Below, piece after piece: positions 1,634 to 51,981 of a stretch of 64,000 nt of DNA; positions within the stretch are counted from its first letter, which is position 1; the number at the start of each line of letters is the position of its first letter. The position numbers and the translations under genes were made by a program. The notes under the pieces were generated by a model. That model saw only the letters and a list, made by a program, of their open reading frames with translations. It searched no databases and was not told the origin of the DNA. This stretch comes from Nitrobacter sp. Nb-311A (GTDB lineage Bacteria; Pseudomonadota; Alphaproteobacteria; Rhizobiales; Xanthobacteraceae), in NCBI RefSeq assembly GCF_000152905.1, contig NZ_CH672416.1, positions 268,398 through 332,397 of the forward strand, given 5' to 3'.

Positions 1634-1880
1634 CCTCCCGTAAGGTTTGTCCCCCCCCCGACGCGGATGAGCGCGATTGATGAAAGCTTCTACGCGTCGT
1701 CGGCAAAAGTGGATGCGGTTCTTACATCGGAGTCGGCGCAGGCAATGACCGAAAGCATTTTCTTAGGGCTATTCCGCTCAACTGGGAAAGGATTCGAGGC
1801 GTGATGCTGGCGTTTTGCCAGCCGCCCGTGGCATGGTAACCAGATCCGTACTGGCCTATCCGGGTTGTGGAGCGTTGCCC

Positions 1881-3152
1881 ATGGTCGAGCCGATCATGTA
1901 TCTGGCGATCGGTTTTCTGATTTCGATGCTGTGCGGACTGATGGTCATGCCGCTTGTGCATAACCGCGCCGTCCGTCTCACCATCAAACGCATGGAAGCC
2001 ACTACCCCGATTTCGATGGTCGAAATCCAGGCCGACAAAGACCAGCTGCGCGCCGAGTTTGCGATGTCGGCGCGGCGGCTGGAAATGAGGGCCGACCAAC
2101 TCAAAAGAAAGGTCGCCAGCCAGTCCGCGGAGCTCGGCAAGAAGGCCGACGCCATCAACCGTCTGAAGGTGGAGCTCGGCGAGAAGAACGCGAGGATCTT
2201 CAGTCTGGAGGGACGCGGGAAATCGGCGGGGGAGCGTTTGCAGTCCGCCGAACAGGAACTTGCCGCCAAGGCCGAAGTGTTGCGGAGCGTCGAGCAGACC
2301 CTCGCCGAGCGGCAGAACGAACTCGGGCGGCTTCGCCAGGAGTTGTCGGACCGCTCGTTGACTGCCGATGGCCGGCAAGCCGAACTGTTCGTGGTCCGCG
2401 CGCAGGTCGAGCGATTGGAAAGCCGCCTCAACGATGTCGAAAGCGAGCTTGCCGCCACGCATGTACTGCTCGAGCAACAGCGCGACGAAACGACAGTCGC
2501 TGCCCGGCAGCGTGACGAGGCACACAAACACGTTGAAAATTTGAGCCAGCGCATCGTCAAGATTGACGGCCAGCTCATCGACAAGACCAGGGACGTGGAA
2601 AGGCTCGGCGGGCGGGTCAGAGAACTCGAAGCCGAGCTCGCCGCGCAAACCACGGCGCTTGCCGAGCGCAATGCGAAGAACAGTGAGTTGCGGCGCGCCA
2701 AAACCGCCGCGGAACGCGCCAACAGTGAGTTGCGCGACGAGATTTCATCGCTGACCGGCGGCAAGTCTCCGCTGATCGATGGGCTGCGCAACGAAATGCT
2801 GGCGGCCGAACGGGCGCTGCGCGCAGCCCATGACGAGCGAGCCAAATTGCAGCGCGACATCAACGTGCTCCAGCGTCAGGCGGAATCCGGCACGGTCGAG
2901 CAGATGGAAAATGCGCTGCTGCGTGAGCATATCAATGACATTGCCGCCGAGGTCGCGAAGCTGGCCATGACCATCGAAGGACCGGATTCACCGATCGAAG
3001 CCATCCTGGCGGCAGCAGCTAAGGGTCCCGCCAAGGCCGCGAAAGCCGTCAACGGCTCGGCGGGCAATGGCGTGATCCCGGCCGGCACGCTTGCCGACCG
3101 CATTCGCGCGCTGCAATCTCGGCCCCCCCGCAGCGGGCGTCGGCCGGGCTAG
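1881..3152 (+). CDS. Membrane-anchored long coiled-coil protein, unknown function
   Basis: 423 residues. The start at 1881 is chosen because GGAG lies 8 bases before it and the protein then opens directly with a transmembrane helix (residues about 4-26); upstream ATGs at 1815 and 1833 lack a ribosome site. From about residue 45 to 360 the sequence is a long, nearly continuous Ala/Glu/Leu/Arg coiled coil with many heptads. A short Pro/Ala/Gly-rich tail follows. It could be a scaffold or a spacer bound to the inner membrane. It looks conserved in Bradyrhizobium relatives but has no known job. Its TAG stop overlaps the first bases of repeat copy A1. Confidence 0.75.
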   Translation: MVEPIMYLAIGFLISMLCGLMVMPLVHNRAVRLTIKRMEATTPISMVEIQADKDQLRAEFAMSARRLEMRADQLKRKVASQSAELGKKADAINRLKVELGEKNARIFSLEGRGKSAGERLQSAEQELAAKAEVLRSVEQTLAERQNELGRLRQELSDRSLTADGRQAELFVVRAQVERLESRLNDVESELAATHVLLEQQRDETTVAARQRDEAHKHVENLSQRIVKIDGQLIDKTRDVERLGGRVRELEAELAAQTTALAERNAKNSELRRAKTAAERANSELRDEISSLTGGKSPLIDGLRNEMLAAERALRAAHDERAKLQRDINVLQRQAESGTVEQMENALLREHINDIAAEVAKLAMTIEGPDSPIEAILAAAAKGPAKAAKAVNGSAGNGVIPAGTLADRIRALQSRPPRSGRRPG

Positions 3153-3255
3153 AGTCCGTTTCAACTGCGTTGAACCAGACCCGTCGCTTATCTTTATTGT
3201 TTGGGCATGATCTTCTCCGAAAACCGGCTTCCCCTTTTTCGGGATCATGCTCCGG
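3151..3255. repeat. Dispersed palindromic repeat, family A (copy A1)
   Basis: Starts AGAGTCCGTTTCAAC and contains the dyad GCATGATC ... GATCATGC around CCGAAAA ... TTTTTCGG, so it can fold as a long hairpin. Related copies are at 47214-47310 and, with a duplicated arm, 50070-50240. The first two bases of the copy lie within the TAG stop codon of the upstream coiled-coil gene. Confidence 0.85.
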
Positions 3256-6439: not shown

Positions 6440-6468
6440 TCACAGCGTAAACTTCTAAATCCCGCCAT

Positions 6469-6530
6469 AGAGCACTTTTCGAGCGAAGTGGATATCGGTT
6501 GCGTTAAGCGTCAGATCCAAATCATAGATC
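6469..6530. repeat. Dispersed repeat, family B (diverged copy B1)
   Basis: Begins AGAGCACTTTTCGAGCG and ends AAATCATAGATC, matching the B copies at 30177, 32525 and 35129 with several changes in the middle. It lies between the convergent gcrA and phoB genes. Confidence 0.7.
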
Positions 6531-6683
6531 GACGTTTCCAATTTCTGTCAGGCGCATAAAGGTTATAGGTCAGATCAGAGTCGGCCGTTTCTGTTTTGCG
6601 ACCTGCCGTAGACCTGCGGAAAGCCGCGGTTTGCACGTCTGGTGCAGCATCACCACGATTATCGGCGCTTTTCGGTTCTCCGC

Positions 6684-27451: not shown

Positions 27452-30178
27452 ATGACGATCCAGCGCACCGTGCCGATATCACCAAACCCGGCCGCCCCCG
27501 CCGAGGCGGCGCGGGTGACGCCGATGATGGAACAGTACCTTGAAATAAAGGCGGCCAATCCCGGCCTGCTGCTGTTCTACCGGATGGGCGATTTCTACGA
27601 GCTGTTCTTCGAGGACGCCGAAATCGCCTCGCGCGCGCTCGGCATCACGCTGACCAAACGCGGCAAGCATCAGGGCGCGGACATCCCGATGTGCGGCGTT
27701 CCGGTCGAACGCTCGGACGACTACCTGCACCGGTTGATCGCAGCCGGCCACCGGGTCGCGGTATGCGAACAGACGGAGGACCCGTCCGCCGCGCGCAAAC
27801 GCGGCAACAAGAGCGTGGTTCGCCGCGATGTGATCCGGCTTGTCACACCAGGAACGCTGACCGAAGATACGCTGCTCGATGCCAGAGCCAACAATTACCT
27901 GCTGGCATTGGCGCGCGCGCGAGCGTCCTCCGACGCGGATCGTTTCGCGCTAGCCTGGATCGACATCTCGACCGCCGAATTCATGGTCACCGAATGCGGA
28001 GCCAGTGAACTCGCGGCGACGCTCGCGCGCATCAATCCCAATGAGGTGATCGTATCCGACGCACTCCATGGCGACCCGGGCCTGAACGTCCTGCTGCGCG
28101 AACTGCCGTCGGTGACGCCACTGACCCGCGACGTGTTCGACGGCGCCACCGCCGAACAGCGACTATGCGATTACTTCGCCGTGGCGACCATGGACGGCCT
28201 CAGCGCCATGTCGCGGCTGGAAGCGACCGCGGCCGCCGCCGCCGTCACCTACATCGACCGCACCCAGATCGGCCAACGGCCACCGCTCTCGCCGCCATCA
28301 CGCGAGGCGTCCGGCAGCACCATGGCGATCGATCCCGCCACCCGCGCCAACCTCGAACTGACGCGCACACTCGCCGGCGAACGGCGCGGTTCGCTGCTCG
28401 ACGCCATCGACCGCACCACGACGGCGGCGGGATCGCGCCTTCTGGCGCAACGGCTGGCGGCCCCGCTGACCGACACGGCGGCGATCACCCGGCGGCTCGA
28501 TGCCGTCGCCGCATTCACCTCGGACAACACGGCGCGCGATGACATCCGCGCCATCCTGCGGACCGCGCCTGACATGTCGCGGGCCCTGGCGCGGCTTTCG
28601 CTCGGGCGCGGCGGACCGCGCGACCTCGCAGGCCTGCGTGACGGCATCATGGCGGCGGACCAGGCGCTGACGCGGCTCGCGGAGTTTCCTGATCCGCCGG
28701 AGGACATCGCCGCGGCGATGCAGGGGTTGCGGCGGCCGTCCCGCGAGCTTGCGCGCGAACTCGGCAACGCTCTCTCCGAGAGCCTGCCCCTGATGAAGCG
28801 CGACGGCGGCTTCGTCCGCGAAGGCTATCACGCCGCGCTCGATGAGGCACGAAAGCTGCGCGACGATTCGCGCCTGGTCGTCGCCGCGATGCAGGCACGC
28901 TACGCCGAGGAGACCGGCGTCAAGACGCTCAAAATTCGCCATAATAACGTGCTCGGCTATTTCGTAGAGGTGACGGCGCAGCATGCCGACCGGCTGATGA
29001 GCGCTCCCCTGAACGCCACCTTCATCCATCGCCAAACGCTGGCAGGTCAGGTGCGTTTCACCACATCGGAGCTTGGTGAAATCGAAGCCAGGATCGCCAA
29101 TGCCGGCGAACGCGCGCTTGGTCTTGAACTTGAAATTTTCGAGCGGCTTGCCGGGATGGCAATCCAGAATGGCGACGAAATACGCAATGCCGCGCACGCC
29201 TTCGCGCAACTGGACGTCGCGGCGGCGCTCGCAACACTCGCGATCGACGAGAATTATACCCGGCCGGAGGTTGACGCCTCGCTCGGCTTCGCCATCGAAA
29301 GCGGGCGGCATCCGGTGGTCGAGCAGGCGCTGAAGCGCACCGGCCAGCCGTTCATCGCCAACGCCTGTGATCTGTCGCCGGGCCCAGGCCAGACTTCGGG
29401 GCAGGTCTGGCTGCTCACCGGTCCGAACATGGCCGGGAAATCGACGTTTCTGCGCCAGAACGCGCTGATCGCGCTGATGGCGCAGATCGGCAGTTTCGTG
29501 CCAGCGCGCCGCGCGCGCATCGGCATGATCGACCGGCTGTTCTCACGCGTGGGCGCTGCCGACGATCTCGCGCGCGGACGCTCGACCTTCATGGTGGAGA
29601 TGGTGGAAACCGCCGTCATCCTCAATCAGGCGTCGGAACGCGCGCTGGTCATTCTCGACGAGATCGGCCGCGGCACCGCGACCTTCGACGGGCTGTCGAT
29701 CGCTTGGGCGACCATCGAGCACCTGCACGAAAGCAACCGGTGCCGCGCGCTGTTCGCCACGCATTATCACGAACTGACCGCGCTGTCGGCAAAGCTGCCG
29801 CGGCTGTTCAACGCCACCGTTCGGGTCAAGGAATGGCATGGCGAGGTCATATTCCTGCACGAAGTGCTGCCTGGCGCCGCCGACCGCTCTTACGGCATCC
29901 AGGTAGCCAGGCTCGCCGGGCTTCCACCCTCGGTCATTGCGCGGGCGAAATCCGTGCTGGCGAAACTGGAGGCGCAGGATCGCGGATCGACCGCGCGCGC
30001 GCTGGCGGACGATCTGCCGCTGTTCGCGGTGCCCGCGCGCAGGGTCGGCGAATCCGCACCATCGAGCGAAACCGCTCCATTGATCGAAGCGTTGACATCC
30101 CTGCACCCCGACGAGATGTCGCCGCGTGAGGCGCTGGACGCGCTCTATGCGCTGAAGGCGAAACTGCCGAAACAATAG
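27452..30178 (+). CDS. mutS: DNA mismatch repair protein MutS
   Basis: 908 residues. The mismatch-reading Phe-x-Glu motif is in GDFYELFF (residues about 46-53). Later come the connector and lever domains, Walker [11 protein letters not shown] (about residue 655), the STFMVEM segment, Walker [13 protein letters not shown] and the ATPase His in THYHELTA. The C-terminal end has a dimerisation region. Binds mispaired bases and recruits MutL. Standing alone here, with no mutL in the window. Its TAG stop overlaps repeat copy B2. Confidence 0.98.
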
Positions 30179-30246
30179 AGCGTTTTCGAGCGAAGCGGAC
30201 ACCGGTTCGCGTGAAGGAAACGCGTCAAAATAAAATCATAGAGCGT
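30177..30246. repeat. Dispersed repeat, family B (copy B2)
   Basis: Runs from AGAGCGTTTTCGAGCG to AAAATCATAGAGCG, with the inner arms GGTTCGCGTG and AAACGCGTC able to pair in part. The first two bases lie in the mutS TAG stop codon. Related copies: 32525, 35129, inverted at about 33254-33345, and diverged at 6469. Confidence 0.85.
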
Positions 30247-31973: not shown

Positions 31974-32015
31974 ATGGAGCTTGAAGACGGCGCGCCGACT
32001 TGCTTTGATCGGGAC

Positions 32016-32525
32016 ATGAGCACGATCCTGATTGAACTCCGGCAAGCCAAGGTCGCGGATGCATCCGCGGTCGCAGCAACGCACGACGAGTCCTGGCGTT
32101 CGACCTATCAGGGCATCATCCCCGGAGCGGAGCTGGAAAAGCTTATCAACCGGCGCGGCCCGCACTGGTGGGATAGCGCGATCCGCAAGGGCAGCCGCAT
32201 CAGCGTTCTGGTATTCGGCGAAAGCGTCGCCGGCTACGCCAACTACGGCCGCAACCGCGCCCGCAGCCTGCAGTATGATGGCGAAATTTACGAGCTTTAC
32301 CTGCGCCCCGAATTCCAGGGTTTAGGCTTCGGCCGGCGTCTGTTCACCGCGGCCCGGCGCGATTTGATACAAAGCGGGCTGAAAAGCATGGTGACGTGGG
32401 CGCTGTCCGACAACGAGCCCGCGATGGAATTCTATCGTGCACTCGGTGGCCGCATGGTCGCCCGCTCCTCCGAGAAGTTCGGGCCGAAGTCGCTCGACAA
32501 GATGGCGTTCGCCTGGACGAGTTAG
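32016..32525 (+). CDS. GNAT-family acetyltransferase
   Basis: 169 residues from the ATG at 32016 (an ATG at 31974 would add 14). GNAT core: LRQAKVADASAVAATHDESW at the N-terminus, acetyl-CoA motif A in LRPEFQGLGFGRRLFTAAR (Q/RxxGxG/A pattern), and motif B WALSDNEPAMEFYRALGG. Substrate unknown. The TAG stop overlaps the start of repeat copy B3, and ppa lies just beyond. Confidence 0.88.
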   Translation: MSTILIELRQAKVADASAVAATHDESWRSTYQGIIPGAELEKLINRRGPHWWDSAIRKGSRISVLVFGESVAGYANYGRNRARSLQYDGEIYELYLRPEFQGLGFGRRLFTAARRDLIQSGLKSMVTWALSDNEPAMEFYRALGGRMVARSSEKFGPKSLDKMAFAWTS

Positions 32526-32588
32526 TGCGTTTTCGAGCGAGGTGGATGACCTGCTCGCGTGAAGAAAACACATCAGACCAAAATGTGT
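32524..32588. repeat. Dispersed repeat, family B (diverged copy B3)
   Basis: Begins AGTGCGTTTTCGAGCGAG, with its first bases inside the GNAT TAG stop codon, and continues CTCGCGTGAAGAAAACACATC. It ends before the ppa start at 32619 and lies wholly in that gene's upstream region. Confidence 0.7.
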
Positions 32589-33149: not shown

Positions 33150-33213
33150 TCGAGCGTCATTCACGGGCACAGCTTTCAAAAGCTGCGCCACTCGCGTCGC
33201 ACGCGAATTCGAT

Positions 33214-33345
33214 AGAGCCATTTCGCTTCTGATGAAATCAGAAGCGCGGCTCTCAGATGTTGATTTGATGCCTTTCGTCACGCGAACCGGATTCCATTCG
33301 AGTCAAGCCCGAGGACATGCTTCGCTCGGAAACGCGACAATTCCA
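33214..33345. repeat. Composite repeat C plus inverted B
   Basis: A near-perfect hairpin (AGAGCC ... GCTTCTGAT gaa ATCAGAAGC ... GGCTCT, 33214-33253) is followed by an inverted, diverged B copy (CACGCGAACCGGATTCC, CTTCGCTCGGAAACGCG). As a unit it is the reverse of the B plus C pair at 35129-35231. It lies between the convergent ppa and folD genes. Confidence 0.75.
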
Positions 33346-34906: not shown

Positions 34907-35128
34907 GGCGGATTGGCTCGCGGGTTTGATCGTGAACACGACCATTGGAGTGAATTTGACGTTCGCGACTTATTTGCCAGTGATGTTCGATTCTGACATT
35001 CGCGGGAACGCGTGGTGAAACCGGATGCGAATGTCAGGATCTGACCACCGGTGTCTGAAGCGGCGGTTCGAATGTTCCTTTACCTAGCCAAAAGTCCGTC
35101 AAGAGAACCTCCGAATTGCAGCCACACT

Positions 35129-35231
35129 ATAGCGTTTTCGAGCGAAGTGGATACCGGTTCGCGTGAGAAAACGCGTCAAGTCAAAATCATAGAGCCCCGC
35201 TTCTGACTCCGTCAAAAGCGCAAAGGCTCTA
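35129..35231. repeat. Composite repeat B plus C
   Basis: B part: AGCGTTTTCGAGCGAAGTGG, then GGTTCGCGTGAGAAAACGCG to AAAATCATAGAG. C part: AGAGCC, GCTTCTGA, loop, TCAAAAGC, GGCTCT, a hairpin. The same composite occurs inverted at 33214-33345. Confidence 0.8.
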
Positions 35232-45092: not shown

Positions 45093-45256
45093 GCAGACGC
45101 GAGCGCTCCAGGCCGGATTCCGGACCTCGACACAGTTGAATGAGAATCCAACCTGGCGGCTTGTCGCCGTTACACACCGCGACGCATAATCGTCGCAACG
45201 GCGAAGACGGACCTGCCTTCGGTTCCGGGGCCCGAGTCCTGCGGTGGAGCAAAACA

Positions 45257-47215
45257 ATGTCCGACAATATTTATGATGTAAGCGCGGATTGGGCCAAGCG
45301 GGCTTGGGTCGACGACGCCAAATATCGCGAGATGTATGCGCGCTCGATCAAGGATCCGGACGGATTCTGGTCCGAGGCGGCGCAGCGCCTGGACTGGATC
45401 ACGCCGTTCACCAAGGTCGAGAACGCCTCGTTCGAACTCGGCAAGGTCTCGATCAAATGGTTCGAGGACGGCGTGCTCAACGCCGCCTACAACTGCATCG
45501 ACCGGCATCTGGAAACACGCGGCGACCAGACCGCGATCATCTGGGAAGGCGACGATCCCTCGCAGTCCAGGCACATCACCTATCGCGAACTGCACGACGA
45601 AGTCTGCAAGATGGCCAACATCCTGCGGCTGCGCAACGTCAAGAAGGGCGACCGCGTCACCATCTACCTGCCGATGATTCCGGAAGCTGCCTACGCGATC
45701 CTTGCCTGCGCGCGGATCGGCGCGATCCACTCGGTGGTGTTCGGCGGCTTCTCCCCGGACTCCATCGCAGGCCGCCTGCGCGATTGCAAATCGCGCGTCA
45801 TCATCACCTCCGACGAGGGCCTGCGCGGCGGCCGCACCATCGCGATGAAGGCCAATGTCGACGCCGCGATCGAGAAGGTCAACGGCGAGGTCGACTGGGT
45901 GATCGTCGTCAAACGCACGGGCGGCAATGTCGACATGAATCCGACGCGCGACGTCTGGTATCACGAGGCCGCGGCCGTGGTCGAAAGTGAATGCCCGTGC
46001 GAACCGATGAACGCGGAAGATCCGCTGTTCATCCTCTACACCTCGGGATCGACCGGACAGCCCAAGGGCGTCCTGCACACCACCGCCGGCTATCTGGTCT
46101 TCGTGGCGATGACGCACCAATACGTCTTCGACTATCACGACGGCGACATCTACTGGTGCACCGCCGACGTCGGCTGGGTCACCGGCCACAGCTACATCCT
46201 GTACGGGCCGCTGGCGAACGGCGCGACCACGATAATATTCGAGGGCGTGCCGAACTATCCCGACACCTCCCGTTTCTGGAACGTGATCGACAAGCACAAG
46301 GTCAACATCTTCTATACCGCGCCGACCGCGATCCGCGCTTTGATGCAGGCGGGCGACGAGCCGGTGAAGAAAACCTCGCGCGCGAGCCTTCGCCTGCTCG
46401 GCTCGGTCGGCGAGCCGATCAACCCCGAAGCCTGGGAATGGTACCACCGCGTGGTCGGTGACGGCCGCTGCCCGGTGGTCGACACCTGGTGGCAAACGGA
46501 AACCGGCGGCATCATGATCTCGGCGCTGCCGGGCGCGATCGCTCAGAAGCCCGGCTCCGCGACCAAGCCGTTCTTCGGAATCGTGCCCGAGATCGTCGAT
46601 GCCGACGGCAATGTTTTGGAAGGCGAATGCAGCGGCAACCTGTGCATCGCAAGATCGTGGCCGGCCCAGGTGCGCACGGTCTATGGCGATCACGCCCGCT
46701 TCGAGCAGACCTACTTCTCCTCCTACAAGGGAAGATACTTTTCCGGCGACGGCTGCCGCCGCGACGCCGACGGCTATTACTGGATCACCGGCCGCGTCGA
46801 TGACGTCATCAACGTCTCCGGTCACCGCATGGGCACGGCGGAAGTCGAAAGCTCGCTGGTCGCGCATGAAAGCGTGTCGGAAGCCGCCGTGGTCGGCTAT
46901 CCCCACAACATCAAGGGCCAGGGCATCTACGCTTACGTCACCCTGATGCAGGGCGTGGAGCCGAGCGAGACACTGCGCAAGGAACTGGTCGCGTGGGTCC
47001 GCAAGGACATCGGCCCGATCGCTTCCCCTGACCTGATCCAGTTTGCGCCCGGCCTGCCGAAAACCCGTTCCGGCAAGATCATGCGCCGCATCCTGCGCAA
47101 GATCGCCGAGGATGAGCCGTCCAGCCTCGGCGACACCACGACGCTTGCTGATCCTGCCGTCGTCACCGATCTCGTCAAGAATCGCCAGAACAAAAAAGAC
47201 GGCGCGACAGCTTAG
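45257..47215 (+). CDS. acs: Acetate-CoA ligase (acetyl-CoA synthetase)
   Basis: 652 residues from the ATG at 45257 (GGAG eight bases before). AMP-forming: [12 protein letters not shown] (P-loop), [22 protein letters not shown] and the acetylatable catalytic Lys in [11 protein letters not shown]. Activates acetate. Length matches the usual 650. Its TAG stop overlaps repeat copy A2. Upstream 160 bases hold no clear promoter. Confidence 0.97.
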
Positions 47216-47310
47216 AGTTTGTTTCAACTTCGTTGAATCAGACTCGTCGCTTATTGTTTGAGCATGATCTTTTTCCGAAAACCTGTTTCCACTTTTCGGG
47301 ATCATGCTCC
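47214..47310. repeat. Dispersed palindromic repeat, family A (copy A2)
   Basis: AGAGTTTGTTTCAAC to the dyad GCATGATCTT ... TTTTCGGGATCATGC, matching A1 at 3151. Its first bases are in the acs TAG stop codon. It lies between the convergent acs and S24-type regulator genes. Confidence 0.85.
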
Positions 47311-47330
47311 AGCGGGAGATTTCAACGAGG

Positions 47331-48176: not shown

Positions 48177-48521
48177 GTGCGCACGATCTACAAAATCTGT
48201 CCTGCTTCGGCCTGGCGGGAGGCCGAGCGGCACGGCGTCTTTCGCGGCAGCGCCGACGATTTCCGTGACGGGTTCATTCATTTTTCAACCGCGTCCCAGC
48301 TCGAAGGCACGGCCCGCAAGCACTTTTTTGGCCAGACCGGGCTGCTCCTGATCGCGATCGATGCCGATGGACTGGGTGAGGCGCTGCGGTGGGAAATCTC
48401 GCGCGGAGGCGAACCGTTTCCACATCTCTATGGCGAACTCGATCTGCGTCATGTCACAACTGTGCTGGATATGCCCGCGCGACCGGACGGATATCACGAT
48501 ATTCCGGAGCTTGCGCCGTGA
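48177..48521 (+). CDS. DUF952 family protein
   Basis: 114 residues from a GTG at 48177. Motifs RTIYKICPASAWREAERHG, DDFRDGFIHFSTASQLEGTA and LYGELDLRHVTTV are typical of DUF952. Function unknown; the family is often found in bacteria near nucleotide genes. Its TGA overlaps the pyrD GTG start (GTGA), so the two are translationally coupled. Confidence 0.9.
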   Translation: MRTIYKICPASAWREAERHGVFRGSADDFRDGFIHFSTASQLEGTARKHFFGQTGLLLIAIDADGLGEALRWEISRGGEPFPHLYGELDLRHVTTVLDMPARPDGYHDIPELAP

Positions 48522-49612
48522 TCCGCGCCTTCGATAACTTCTCGCTGCCCCTGTTGCGCTGGTTCGATCCCGAAGATGCGCATCGCATGGCGATACAGGG
48601 TTTACGGCTCCTGCCGCCGATACGCCAGCGCACCGAGGATCCGAAACTTGCGGTCCGCGCCTTCGGCCTGAATTTTCCTAATCCGATCGGCCTGGCCGCC
48701 GGTTTTGACAAGAGCGCCGAGGTTCCGGACGCACTGCTGAAACTCGGATTCGGCTTCGTCGAAATCGGTTCGGTAACGCCGAGAGCCCAGCCCGGCAATC
48801 CGCGTCCCCGCGTGTTCCGGCTTGAACGCGACGAGGGCGTCATCAACCGCATGGGATTCAACAACGACGGCGCACACACCGTGCTTCGCCGGCTTGCGGC
48901 CCGCGCGCATTCCGGCGGCATCGTTGGAGTGAACATCGGCGCCAACAAGGACTCGGCCAATCACATCGCCGACTATGTCAGGCTGATCGAAATCTTTGCC
49001 CCGGTGGCAAGTTACTTCACTGTGAACGTGTCGTCGCCCAATACTCCCGGCCTGCGCAACCTGCAGCAGGCGGCGGCGCTCGACGAATTGCTGGCGAGGG
49101 TGATCGACGCCCGCGAGCGTGTCCGACAGAACGCAGGCGACACGCCGGTGCTGCTCAAGATCGCGCCCGACCTGACCCTGGCAGAGCTCGACGACGTCGT
49201 TCACATCGCACGCTCACGACGCACCGACGGTATGATCGTCGGCAACACTACCTTGACGCGCCCCTCGACCCTGCGCGATCAAGCGCGCGCGAAAGAACAG
49301 GGTGGATTATCAGGACGACCGCTGTTCCGCCTGTCGACGCGGATGGTGGCGGAAACCTATGTGCGGACGGAAGGCGCATTTCCGCTGGTCGGCGTCGGCG
49401 GCATCGACTCAGGCGGCGCCGCACTGACCAAAATTCGCGCAGGCGCCACCTTGATTCAGCTCTACTCGTCCCTGGTCTACAAGGGGCTCGGACTGATCGA
49501 CAACATCAAGAGCGATCTGACTTCGACATTGCTGCGAACCGGCCGCGACTCGCTAGCGGATGTCATCGGCGCTGACGCGGCGACCATTACGGCGGAAGAC
49601 TGGCCGGTGTAG
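48518..49612 (+). CDS. pyrD: Dihydroorotate dehydrogenase (class 2, quinone)
   Basis: 364 residues, GTG start at 48518 overlapping the DUF952 stop. Class 2 signature FGFVEIGSVTPRAQPGNPRPRVFRL, catalytic Ser region VNVSSPNTPGLRNLQ, and FMN site GVGGIDSGGAALTKIRAGATLIQLY. The N-terminal RAFDNFSLPLLRWFDPEDAH is the membrane-associated helix. Oxidises dihydroorotate to orotate with quinone. Its TAG overlaps repeat copy C3. Confidence 0.96.
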   Translation: MIRAFDNFSLPLLRWFDPEDAHRMAIQGLRLLPPIRQRTEDPKLAVRAFGLNFPNPIGLAAGFDKSAEVPDALLKLGFGFVEIGSVTPRAQPGNPRPRVFRLERDEGVINRMGFNNDGAHTVLRRLAARAHSGGIVGVNIGANKDSANHIADYVRLIEIFAPVASYFTVNVSSPNTPGLRNLQQAAALDELLARVIDARERVRQNAGDTPVLLKIAPDLTLAELDDVVHIARSRRTDGMIVGNTTLTRPSTLRDQARAKEQGGLSGRPLFRLSTRMVAETYVRTEGAFPLVGVGGIDSGGAALTKIRAGATLIQLYSSLVYKGLGLIDNIKSDLTSTLLRTGRDSLADVIGADAATITAEDWPV

Positions 49613-49650
49613 AGCCTGTCCGCTCCTGATAGAACCAGAAGCGGGGCTTT
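49611..49650. repeat. Dispersed repeat, family C (copy C3)
   Basis: AGAGCC, then GCTCCTGAT, AGAAGC and GGCTTT, matching the hairpin arms of the C parts at 33214 and 35191. It starts inside the pyrD TAG stop codon. Confidence 0.7.
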
Positions 49651-49678
49651 CAGATCTGATGACGTGCCGGAAAACTCT

Positions 49679-49984: not shown

Positions 49985-50069
49985 CAAAGTTCTCCTGCGG
50001 ACATAAGGCCCACCAACATAATCAGTATGCGGCGGAGGGGAAACCACCGTTCCGCCATCAATGGCCGTT

Positions 50070-50240
50070 AGAGTCGGGTTCAACCGCGTTGAACAAGACT
50101 CTAACCTTAACTTTTTGATCGCGCATGATCTTATCCGAAAACCGGTTTCCACTTTTCGGGATCATGCTCCAGCCTTAACTTTTTGATCGCGCACAATCTT
50201 AGCCGGAAACCAGCTTCCACTTTTCGGGATCATGCGCCAG
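50070..50240. repeat. Family A repeat with a directly duplicated arm (copy A3)
   Basis: AGAGTCGGGTTCAACCG opens a normal A copy. Its right arm, CCTTAACTTTTTGATCGCG through TTTTCGGGATCATGCTCCAG (50105-50172), is repeated directly at 50173-50240 with about six changes. The right end also encodes the last residues and the TGA stop of the DNA ligase gene. Confidence 0.85.
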
Positions 50241-51981
50241 CGCCGGTTGATTTGGCGGCTTCAGAGGTCAGCATCCGTTCCAGCGTTTCCAACCGATCCG
50301 CCTCGCGCGGCGGCTTGTCCCAACGCAGCCGGTTGATCCGCGGAAAGCGCATCGCCACTCCTGATTTATGCCGGGCCGAACGCTGCAAGCCCTCAAAGGC
50401 GATTTCGAGCACCAGTCCCCGATCGGGCTCATGCAGGACATGGCGCACCGGGCCGAAACTCTCGGTGGTGTTGCGGCGGACGAACCGGTCGATCCGGACC
50501 AATTCCTCATCGGTAAAGCCGAAATAAGCCTTGCCGACGGGCACCAGCTGTTCGCCCTCCTCCCCCGCGGTCCAGACCCCAAAGGTGTAATCGGAGTAAT
50601 AGGACGAGCGCCTGCCGTGTCCGCGCTGCGCATACATCAGGACGGCGTCGATGATACGCGGATCGCGCTTCCACTTCCACCAAAGACCTTTTGGACGCCC
50701 CGGCAGATAGGACGCGTCACAACGTTTCAACATGATGCCTTCGATGGCATCGGCATCTGCCCCCGCGCCGGCGGCGGCCGGGTCGGCCCGGGCTGCCGCC
50801 AATTCGCCCCAGGTCGCGAAAGCCACCCGCGGCGAAAGGTCGATGCGCGGGTCGTCAAGCGCGGCGATGAAATCAACAAGCCGCCGCCGCCGATCCTCGA
50901 ACGGCAACTCGCGCAGATCGTTGTCGCCATCTTCGAGCAGGTCGTAGGCGCGCAGGTGAATAGGAAACTCCTTCATCAGCCTGGACGTCACCGCCTTGCG
51001 GTTCAGCCGCTGTTGCAGGACGTTGAACGATTGCACCCGTCCATCGCGCACCACCAGCAACTCGCCATCGATAGCGAAAGTTTGCTGCCGAAAAGCGCCA
51101 AAAGGCTTCCGCGAGTCATTGAGCCTCCCTTCAGAAGAGCCCTCGCGCCGCAACGAGGGGAGCAAATCGGGGAAACTGTGGGTGATGTCCTCGCCCGTGC
51201 GCGAATAGAGCCGTGTCGCGATATTGCCATGCTCATCGCAGCCGCTCACCGCCTGCACCCGGATGCCGTCCCATTTCCACTCGGCGATGAAATCGGCGGC
51301 ATCCAGACGCGCAAAATCGGCATCATCGATCGCATGCGCCAGCATCACCGGCCGAAACGGCGCGGGGATGCGATTGACCGGTCTTTCGCCGCGGCCCTCA
51401 AGCCATGCGAACAGATCGAGGTAAGGCGGCGCGAGACCGGGCCAGATCAATTCGACATCGTGAACGTCTTTGCCACCAAGCGCGGCGGCTGCGGTCTTGG
51501 CGAGTCTGGCGGAGATGCCGATCCGCATGGCGCCGGTGACGAGTTTCAACAGCGCCCAGCGCCCGGTCTCGTCCAGTTCGTCAAGCCAGCGTGCAAGTTG
51601 CGCCGGCAGTTCGGCTTTGCCGAGCGTGCGAAGCGTCGTGACGACGTTTGTGAGAGTCGGGGGTGGAGAACTGTCGTGGTGGTCGTCCATTGCCCCTTCG
51701 GCAAGTGATGACGTCGGCCACATCAGTGCCGCCGTTTCAGAGAGATCGCCGACATAATCATAGGACAGCGCGAACAACACCGGATCGACGCGCGCGGCGA
51801 TCAGATCGCGGACCAGCCCCGCCTTGGCGTGTTTGAACGACAATGCGCCGGTGAGCGCGGCCAGTGCGTAGCCTCGATCCGGATCCGGCGTGTCGCGAAA
51901 GTATGCGGTGATCAGCCGCAGCTTGTTGTTGCGGCCGGGCTCGTAGGCGAGGCGGTCGAGAAGTTCGGCGAAGCGATTCAC
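50230..51981 (-). CDS. ATP-dependent DNA ligase (ligase-associated DNA damage response type)
   Basis: 583 residues. Adenylation domain motif I with the AMP-accepting Lys in EWKWDGIRVQ (K236), motif III AIDGELLVV, motif IV EGIMLKRCDASY and motif V GLWWKWKRDP. N-terminal helical domain in residues about 1-200. The homologues I recall run directly from SFPDLLPSL to AIDGELL, while here about 25 residues are inserted between them (residues 278-302). The ATG overlaps the exonuclease stop (ATGA). The helicase and PdeM partners of this cassette are not adjacent. It ends inside repeat A3. Confidence 0.88.
   Translation of the reverse strand: MNRFAELLDRLAYEPGRNNKLRLITAYFRDTPDPDRGYALAALTGALSFKHAKAGLVRDLIAARVDPVLFALSYDYVGDLSETAALMWPTSSLAEGAMDDHHDSSPPPTLTNVVTTLRTLGKAELPAQLARWLDELDETGRWALLKLVTGAMRIGISARLAKTAAAALGGKDVHDVELIWPGLAPPYLDLFAWLEGRGERPVNRIPAPFRPVMLAHAIDDADFARLDAADFIAEWKWDGIRVQAVSGCDEHGNIATRLYSRTGEDITHSFPDLLPSLRREGSSEGRLNDSRKPFGAFRQQTFAIDGELLVVRDGRVQSFNVLQQRLNRKAVTSRLMKEFPIHLRAYDLLEDGDNDLRELPFEDRRRRLVDFIAALDDPRIDLSPRVAFATWGELAAARADPAAAGAGADADAIEGIMLKRCDASYLPGRPKGLWWKWKRDPRIIDAVLMYAQRGHGRRSSYYSDYTFGVWTAGEEGEQLVPVGKAYFGFTDEELVRIDRFVRRNTTESFGPVRHVLHEPDRGLVLEIAFEGLQRSARHKSGVAMRFPRINRLRWDKPPREADRLETLERMLTSEAAKSTGAGA

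Follow-up and report, generated by a model that had tools for sequence, protein, structure and literature searches.

Why should gene after gene in one stretch of bacterial DNA end exactly where a repeated sequence begins? We address this question in a window of 64,000 nucleotides, by which we mean the whole stretch analysed, a part of contig C11 of Nitrobacter sp. Nb-311A, whose genome measures 4.1 Mb. A profile search found two repeat families there, with ten copies or part copies (Table 1). The first-pass annotation of this DNA had claimed that in five genes a repeat terminus forms the final TAG, and all five junctions lie where it had placed them; the frames that they close are open for 461, 919, 185, 691 and 410 codons. 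According to Pfam, four of the five genes encode MutS, a GNAT protein, acetyl-CoA synthetase and dihydroorotate dehydrogenase, and the fifth gives coiled-coil matches alone, all under the curated cut-offs. The MutS is 90% identical to those of two Nitrobacter MAGs, the closest among the matches listed. Rfam, at the gathering cut-off, returned two tRNAs in the window and no family covering the repeats. A sixth gene, the DNA ligase, had been said to end inside repeat A3: its last codons do lie in an A-type copy, but this copy is the second of a tandem pair, and the TGA stands 7 nt inside it (projected copy end 50239). The same offset of -7 as in the window at 50230-50239 was also seen at 4 of the 108 A right ends.

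Table 1. Genes and repeat copies of the window, with window positions and the basis of each assignment.
Feature	Position	Strand	Basis and relation to stops
Coiled-coil gene	1815-3152	+	ORF; stop TAG 3150-3152 is the left-end TAG of A1
A1, A-family element	3150-3254	+	Profile match, offset 0; left-end TAG ends coiled-coil gene
BC-family element, away from stops	6468-6567	+	Profile match
mutS	27452-30178	+	ORF and Pfam; stop TAG 30176-30178 overlaps element B2
B2, left part of BC-family element	30176-30246	+	Profile; its TAG is the mutS stop
GNAT acetyltransferase	31974-32525	+	ORF and Pfam; stop TAG 32523-32525
B3, left part of BC-family element	32523-32586	+	Profile; overlaps GNAT stop
BC-family element with additional internal stretch, away from stops	33213-33339	-	Profile
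Full BC-family element, away from stops	35128-35231	+	Profile
acs	45140-47215	+	ORF and Pfam; stop TAG 47213-47215
A2, A-family element	47213-47311	+	Profile; left-end TAG is the acs stop
pyrD	48389-49612	+	ORF and Pfam; stop TAG 49610-49612
C3, right half of BC-family element	49610-49658	-	Profile positions 56-104; right end gives pyrD stop
A3, A-family element, first of tandem pair	50069-50171	+	Profile
Second A-family copy of tandem pair, left-truncated	50172-50239	+	Left limit approximate; contains ligase stop TGA
ATP-dependent DNA ligase	50230-51981	-	ORF and Pfam; final two full codons and stop within A-family copy

What had been described as separate repeats B and C are the left and right halves of a single BC family, whose profile of about 104 bp runs from TA[G/T]AGCGTTTTCGAGCG... 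to ...GGCTCTA, and the A family has a profile of about 101 bp running from TAGAGTCTGTTTCAAC... to ...GGATCATGCTCTA. The consensus ends of the repeats are TAGAGC, TATAGC or TAGAGT; at position 3 of the BC left end, T (55%) is more frequent than G (40%). Both consensus sequences are predicted to form two strong hairpins each (z -7.0 and -7.4), and lengths of 104 and 101 bp, a size in the MITE range, leave no room for a transposase gene. The CcrM methylation site GANTC is found 8.3 times per kb in BC and 13.8 times in A elements, against 3.8 in the other noncoding DNA of the 2.83 Mb searched, so that GANTC sites, two hairpins and TA ends are combined here as in CIR and Bru-RS-type repeats. Some BC copies, among them that at 33213-33339 of the window and those at mutS in genomes G007 and G008, contain at one fixed place a further inverted repeat, internal and about 25 bp long (like ATGTCCTCGGGCTTGACCCGAGGAT). 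Concerning distribution, a query consisting largely of a left part of BC matched 21 of the 121 genomes sampled from the order, the host's own included. Sequences resembling BC occur in 7 plasmid records, and those resembling A in 104 plasmid records from six genera, which we take to be Rhizobiales; 7 of these cover at least 80% of the query. Six candidate gaps were found in which paired half-elements stand around a long stretch.

The coincidence was then counted in 2.83 Mb of DNA from a single genus, namely stretches of four contigs of the host genome and of two sister genomes. Profiles built for both families yielded 507 copies with 697 resolved ends, and the stops were taken from a simple home-made ORF finder based on hexamers and independent of annotation. 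Exactly 100 of the 697 ends from the three genomes fall on an in-frame stop, as opposed to 44 ends altogether at the 18 remaining offsets between -9 and +9, a mean of 2.4 per offset; the view of the first-pass annotation that chance was unlikely is thus borne out. The host genome alone (30% sampled) gave 44 of 296 ends on a stop versus 17 over the other offsets from -9 to +9. These counts include shared ancestral insertions, and the 100 stops collapse to 86 orthologue groups. The rule had been tied to the left end, (T)AGAG, and this part of it does not hold. In the window, it is the right end of C3 that sits on pyrD, so the coincidence concerns both element ends, and in the larger sample the ends on stops number 33 of 321 for BC left, 31 of 212 for BC right, 9 of 56 for A left and 27 of 108 for A right; a rule restricted to left ends is ruled out, since both ends of both families occur at stops. 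The share of window copies at stops, 5 of the 10 found by profile, is not clearly unusual beside the 65 of 225 seen among all copies with both ends resolved.

The mechanism of insertion can be read from sites that are occupied in one genome and empty in another. We collected 26 clean cases at 24 loci, each flank matching at 9 or more of 12 bases, and a junction of two bases was found in 14 of them: TA in 8, CA in 2, TG in 2, GG in 1 and CG in 1, the CA and TG junctions (4 of the 14) being one transition away from TA. This is the TA target-site duplication that characterizes MITEs of the IS630/Tc1-mariner type. The other 12 cases gave another junction length, in some of them probably because the end of the profile is off by a few bases. 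In one example, the element at g7b:23495, compared with the host genome, has the empty site gatgacc-TA-gcctgcc, both flanks matching at 12 of 12 bases; for C11:169702, the empty site in G007 reads gaatggt-TA-gctttcg, and for g5:301065 the empty site is CA and the orthologue ends in TGA. At the best-resolved ends, a pyrimidine flanks the TA on its outer side in 88-91% of cases for all four end classes, and the target is therefore Y-TA-R. Thus, the elements insert at Y-TA-R and duplicate the TA. The preferential insertion at TAG proposed earlier stands as a preference, but its target is Y-TA-R and not TAG itself.

Any TAG or TAA preceded by a pyrimidine matches Y-TA-R, and since most element termini start with G after the TA, insertion there rebuilds TAG. 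The stops that carry elements have the corresponding composition: 90 are TAG, 9 TAA and 1 TGA, while all called genes use TAG 579, TAA 406 and TGA 1387 times, and a pyrimidine precedes 86 of the 100 element-bearing stops versus 395 of the 985 TAG/TAA stops overall. The lowest rate of stops is that of the BC left end (33 of 321), where TAG would often not be rebuilt since position 3 is more often T than G. In this DNA of about 60% G+C, Y-TA-R makes up 6% of coding TA sites and 34% of free stop TA sites. We compared the insertions with a supply model in which sites are weighted by the end logo, using the 203 of the 225 copies with both ends resolved that lie in gaps between called genes (the 22 others, five of them at stops, were left out). 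A model with nothing but raw TA supply, in which stops should receive 20% of the insertions in convergent gaps and 8.6% of those in co-directional gaps, falls below what was observed and was rejected; weighting by Y-TA-R lifts these shares to 31% and 17%. Convergent gaps then have 32 of 74 insertions at stops where 23.2 are expected (P 0.02), co-directional gaps 28 of 106 where 18.0 are expected (P 0.01), and divergent gaps, with 23 insertions, have no stop on offer. In total, 60 of 203 insertions are at stops versus 41.3 expected, and the 1.45-fold excess left over could reflect miscalled genes, selection on a finer scale or some additional preference for sequence. Relative to the weighted target supply, the 430 copies in which an end was resolved (omitting 49 that lie in called genes or elsewhere) give ratios of 2.29 for convergent gaps, 1.52 for stops, 0.99 for co-directional gaps and 0.36 for divergent gaps, the last being what a loss of insertions close to promoters would produce.

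The remaining excess and the over-representation in convergent gaps are also what one could advance, together with the two strong hairpins of each consensus, for the reading that a selected 3'-end hairpin, acting in mRNA stability, termination or ribosome release, and not a target preference, drives the coincidence. We hold this improbable, given that either end of both families is found at stops, that a hairpin function has no need of a spike one base sharp, and that the scan for intrinsic terminators between positions 47100 and 50400 of the window found none. The exact register is accounted for by the Y-TA-R context and the TA duplication, and a selected transcript-end structure would not be needed to explain where the repeats lie.

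The first-pass annotation had also considered that genes were cut back by the insertions and now use a stop supplied by the repeat. To follow this, orthologues were found for 84 of the 100 stops, giving 165 comparisons without doubled sources, and were called element-free when a crude pattern scan saw no element signature in the 140 bases downstream. Of the 107 element-free comparisons, to which the window genes contribute 21, 85 have an identical stop position, 17 have the stop shifted by up to 9 nt and 5 by more; restricted to the three main genomes, the figures are 57 of 72, 10 and 5. Taken gene by gene, one or more element-free orthologues stop at offset 0 for 49 of 61, and for 3 genes none stops within 9 nt. 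As evidence against its own claim, the annotation had named relatives that lack the repeat and have the same TAG, and to a large extent these were found: the stops of the 85 same-codon orthologues are TAG in 53, TGA in 17 and TAA in 15, the 17 TGA requiring that the stop changed afterwards in one of the lineages. Where the orthologue does have an element signature, the stop is at offset 0 in 52 of 58 cases (two relatives counted twice). The window genes behave in the same way. The end codon of mutS is identical in L069 and L070, MAG contigs without the element; six relatives of the GNAT gene in the genus have no element signature and the same end codon, TAG or TAA; element-free relatives of acs stop at the same codon; and the sole relative found for the coiled-coil gene has an unchanged end codon, which lies on another element. 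The end codon of pyrD is shared by six relatives with element-like sequence behind the stop, and two element-free relatives end one codon later.

That the termini do provide a TAG, that the ligase and some other genes read into an element, and that 5 of the 107 element-free comparisons differ by more than 9 nt would all suit cut-back genes, but the 85 with an unchanged codon do not. Truncation in a random frame should, by our reasoning, leave about twice as many read-ins as exact stops; in fact a called gene of the same direction reads into 22 of the 697 element ends (all lengths), compared with the 100 exact stops, and 10 ends altogether are at offset -1 or -2. As judged from these sequence comparisons, the genes appear mostly not to have been cut back and their proteins would be mostly unchanged, which makes the cut-back scenario very improbable as the source of the coincidence. 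Finally, a chance meeting of dense repeats with short intergenic gaps, to which 507 copies in 2.83 Mb might lend some colour, is negligible before a spike of 100 ends over 2.4 per neighbouring offset.

Because every insertion leaves a Y-TA-R at both ends, elements can stack. Close pairs of neighbouring elements with facing ends have exactly one TA in common in 12 of 20 cases, and when occupied orthologous stops are paired across genomes, 8 of the 15 pairs differ in family or end, one stop entering two of these eight. A likely partner for mobilisation is an IS630-type insertion sequence, found in G007 in four copies of about 1.05 kb that are 99.8-100% identical (stretches g7/g7b/g7c, L189-L263), with one relative in another stretch. 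Both it and its relative encode DDE_3 domains (E=3.1e-35 and 1e-33), the coding sequence being divided among more than one frame. Their ends are TA|GAGC.../...GCTC|TA or TA|GAGTC.../...GGCTC|TA, and the G007 IS ends TA|GAGCGGGATGGG and TA|GAGCATGATGAG resemble the right end of the A family, TA|GAGCATGATCCC, by eye over no more than 4-9 bp. Two of the four copies adjoin ends that look by eye like those of elements, and one right end falls exactly on the stop of a called gene. The host genome (G000) has four DDE_3 matches, three of them over the cut-off. At locus L007 (about 1125-1319), a C-terminal remnant of an IS630-type transposase directly follows a small gene, and a BC element lies no more than about 0.2 kb away. 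From the shared target and the end bases, we infer that transposases of the IS630-type group may mobilise the repeats. The search for a RAYT partner gave only fragments, namely two partial Y1_Tnp matches in open frames of 74 and 66 aa.

Together, these results lead us to a scenario that we consider highly probable as a whole. Non-autonomous, MITE-like elements of about 100 bp would enter Y-TA-R sites and duplicate the TA, as the empty sites indicate. Where the target TA belongs to a TAG or TAA stop, the near TA and the G of the element would re-form TAG at the same place and in the same frame, and the protein would stay unchanged in most cases, to judge from the element-free orthologues. The distribution of the copies suggests that insertions at stops survive and that those inside genes or between divergent genes are mostly lost. 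With the target re-created at each end, further elements could stack on the same stop, a step for which the junctions sharing a TA and the different elements on the same orthologous stop argue. The elements would be mobilised by a transposase of the IS630 type whose target is the same and whose end bases are similar. A bolder proposal is that occupying stops is an evolved strategy, the termini TA|GAG...CTC|TA rebuilding both stop and target in either orientation; we find this rather unlikely. If it were true, stop codons would be harmless, reusable docking sites which gather successive elements across Rhizobiales, and many genes would come to have a hairpin immediately behind their stop.

Stop codons provided by repeats have been published before, for GTAG REPs and for pneumococcal BOX. 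The termini of GTAG REPs "often provide" a TAG stop to flanking ORFs, and these repeats, which occur in Bradyrhizobium and Rhodopseudomonas, include uni- and convergent-type copies near the 3' ends of genes (PMC3733652). They are described there as palindromes of 20-40 bp tagged GTAG or CGTC, unlike the window repeats with their about 100 bp, two hairpins and TA duplication. The window repeats are accordingly not assigned to the REPs: in place of a single tagged palindrome of 20-40 bp, they have about 100 bp and the ends TAGAGC/TATAGC/TAGAGT. In Streptococcus pneumoniae, BOX encodes the stop in 36 genes, whose orthologues gave no strong evidence of truncation; that host is unrelated, and the passages concerned do not report a Y-TA-R rule (PMC3049150). 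ERIC, Correia/NEMIS and RUP are shorter than 200 bp, encode no protein, and have TA at their ends and a target duplication, and IS630-Spn1 has been proposed to move RUP (PMC2229807). They belong to other hosts and their ends are listed as pairing contiguously over 7-24 bp (PMC2229807), whereas those of the window repeats do so over GAGC/GAGT only. A unit of the ERIC type was described to extend a gene instead of keeping its stop (PMC2759123).

Concerning the target, targeting of TA has been demonstrated in vitro for an IS630-family transposase (PMC2170065), and IS711 of Brucella inserts at YTAR with duplication of the TA and has a preference for the palindromic Bru-RS repeats (PMC2266754). IS711 is an autonomous IS, unlike these repeats, and Bru-RS is likened to them by description only. 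The CIR of alphaproteobacteria have two inverted-repeat arms with a linker, TA ends and GANTC (Chen and Shapiro 2003, cited in PMC2229807); the two-hairpin layout, the TA ends and the GANTC enrichment are the points of likeness, again by description only. Br-REP1 of Bradyrhizobium is an intergenic repeat with three hairpins, located in 3'-UTRs and first met between convergent genes (PMC5082802); its core palindrome, with 3 mismatches allowed, is absent from the 507 copies and from the 2.83 Mb. MITEPsy1 of Pseudomonas syringae, a MITE of 100 nt, inserts at CTAG or YTAA and differs from these repeats by its 4-nt duplication, its 18-nt inverted repeats and its tentative link to IS5 (PMC3189936). 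A search for papers on MITE or IS630 elements in Nitrobacter and Bradyrhizobium found none that matched, and in the literature as judged from titles and the openings of abstracts we found no statement of a Y-TA-R/stop rule. The repeats therefore belong to a known kind of mobile repeat, in which the stop-codon rule is unusually clear.

A target site, a terminal base and purifying selection would together make genes stop precisely where a repeat starts, in most cases with the protein unchanged. The rule predicts the possible positions of repeats and is a warning for annotation, in that such junctions should not be taken for truncations. It may also bear on the preference of IS711 for Bru-RS, as the ends of the elements re-create YTAR sites. 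In this genome, strong predicted hairpins are placed in this way directly behind the stops of housekeeping genes such as mutS, acs and pyrD, where effects on mRNA decay and on the termination of translation could be tested.
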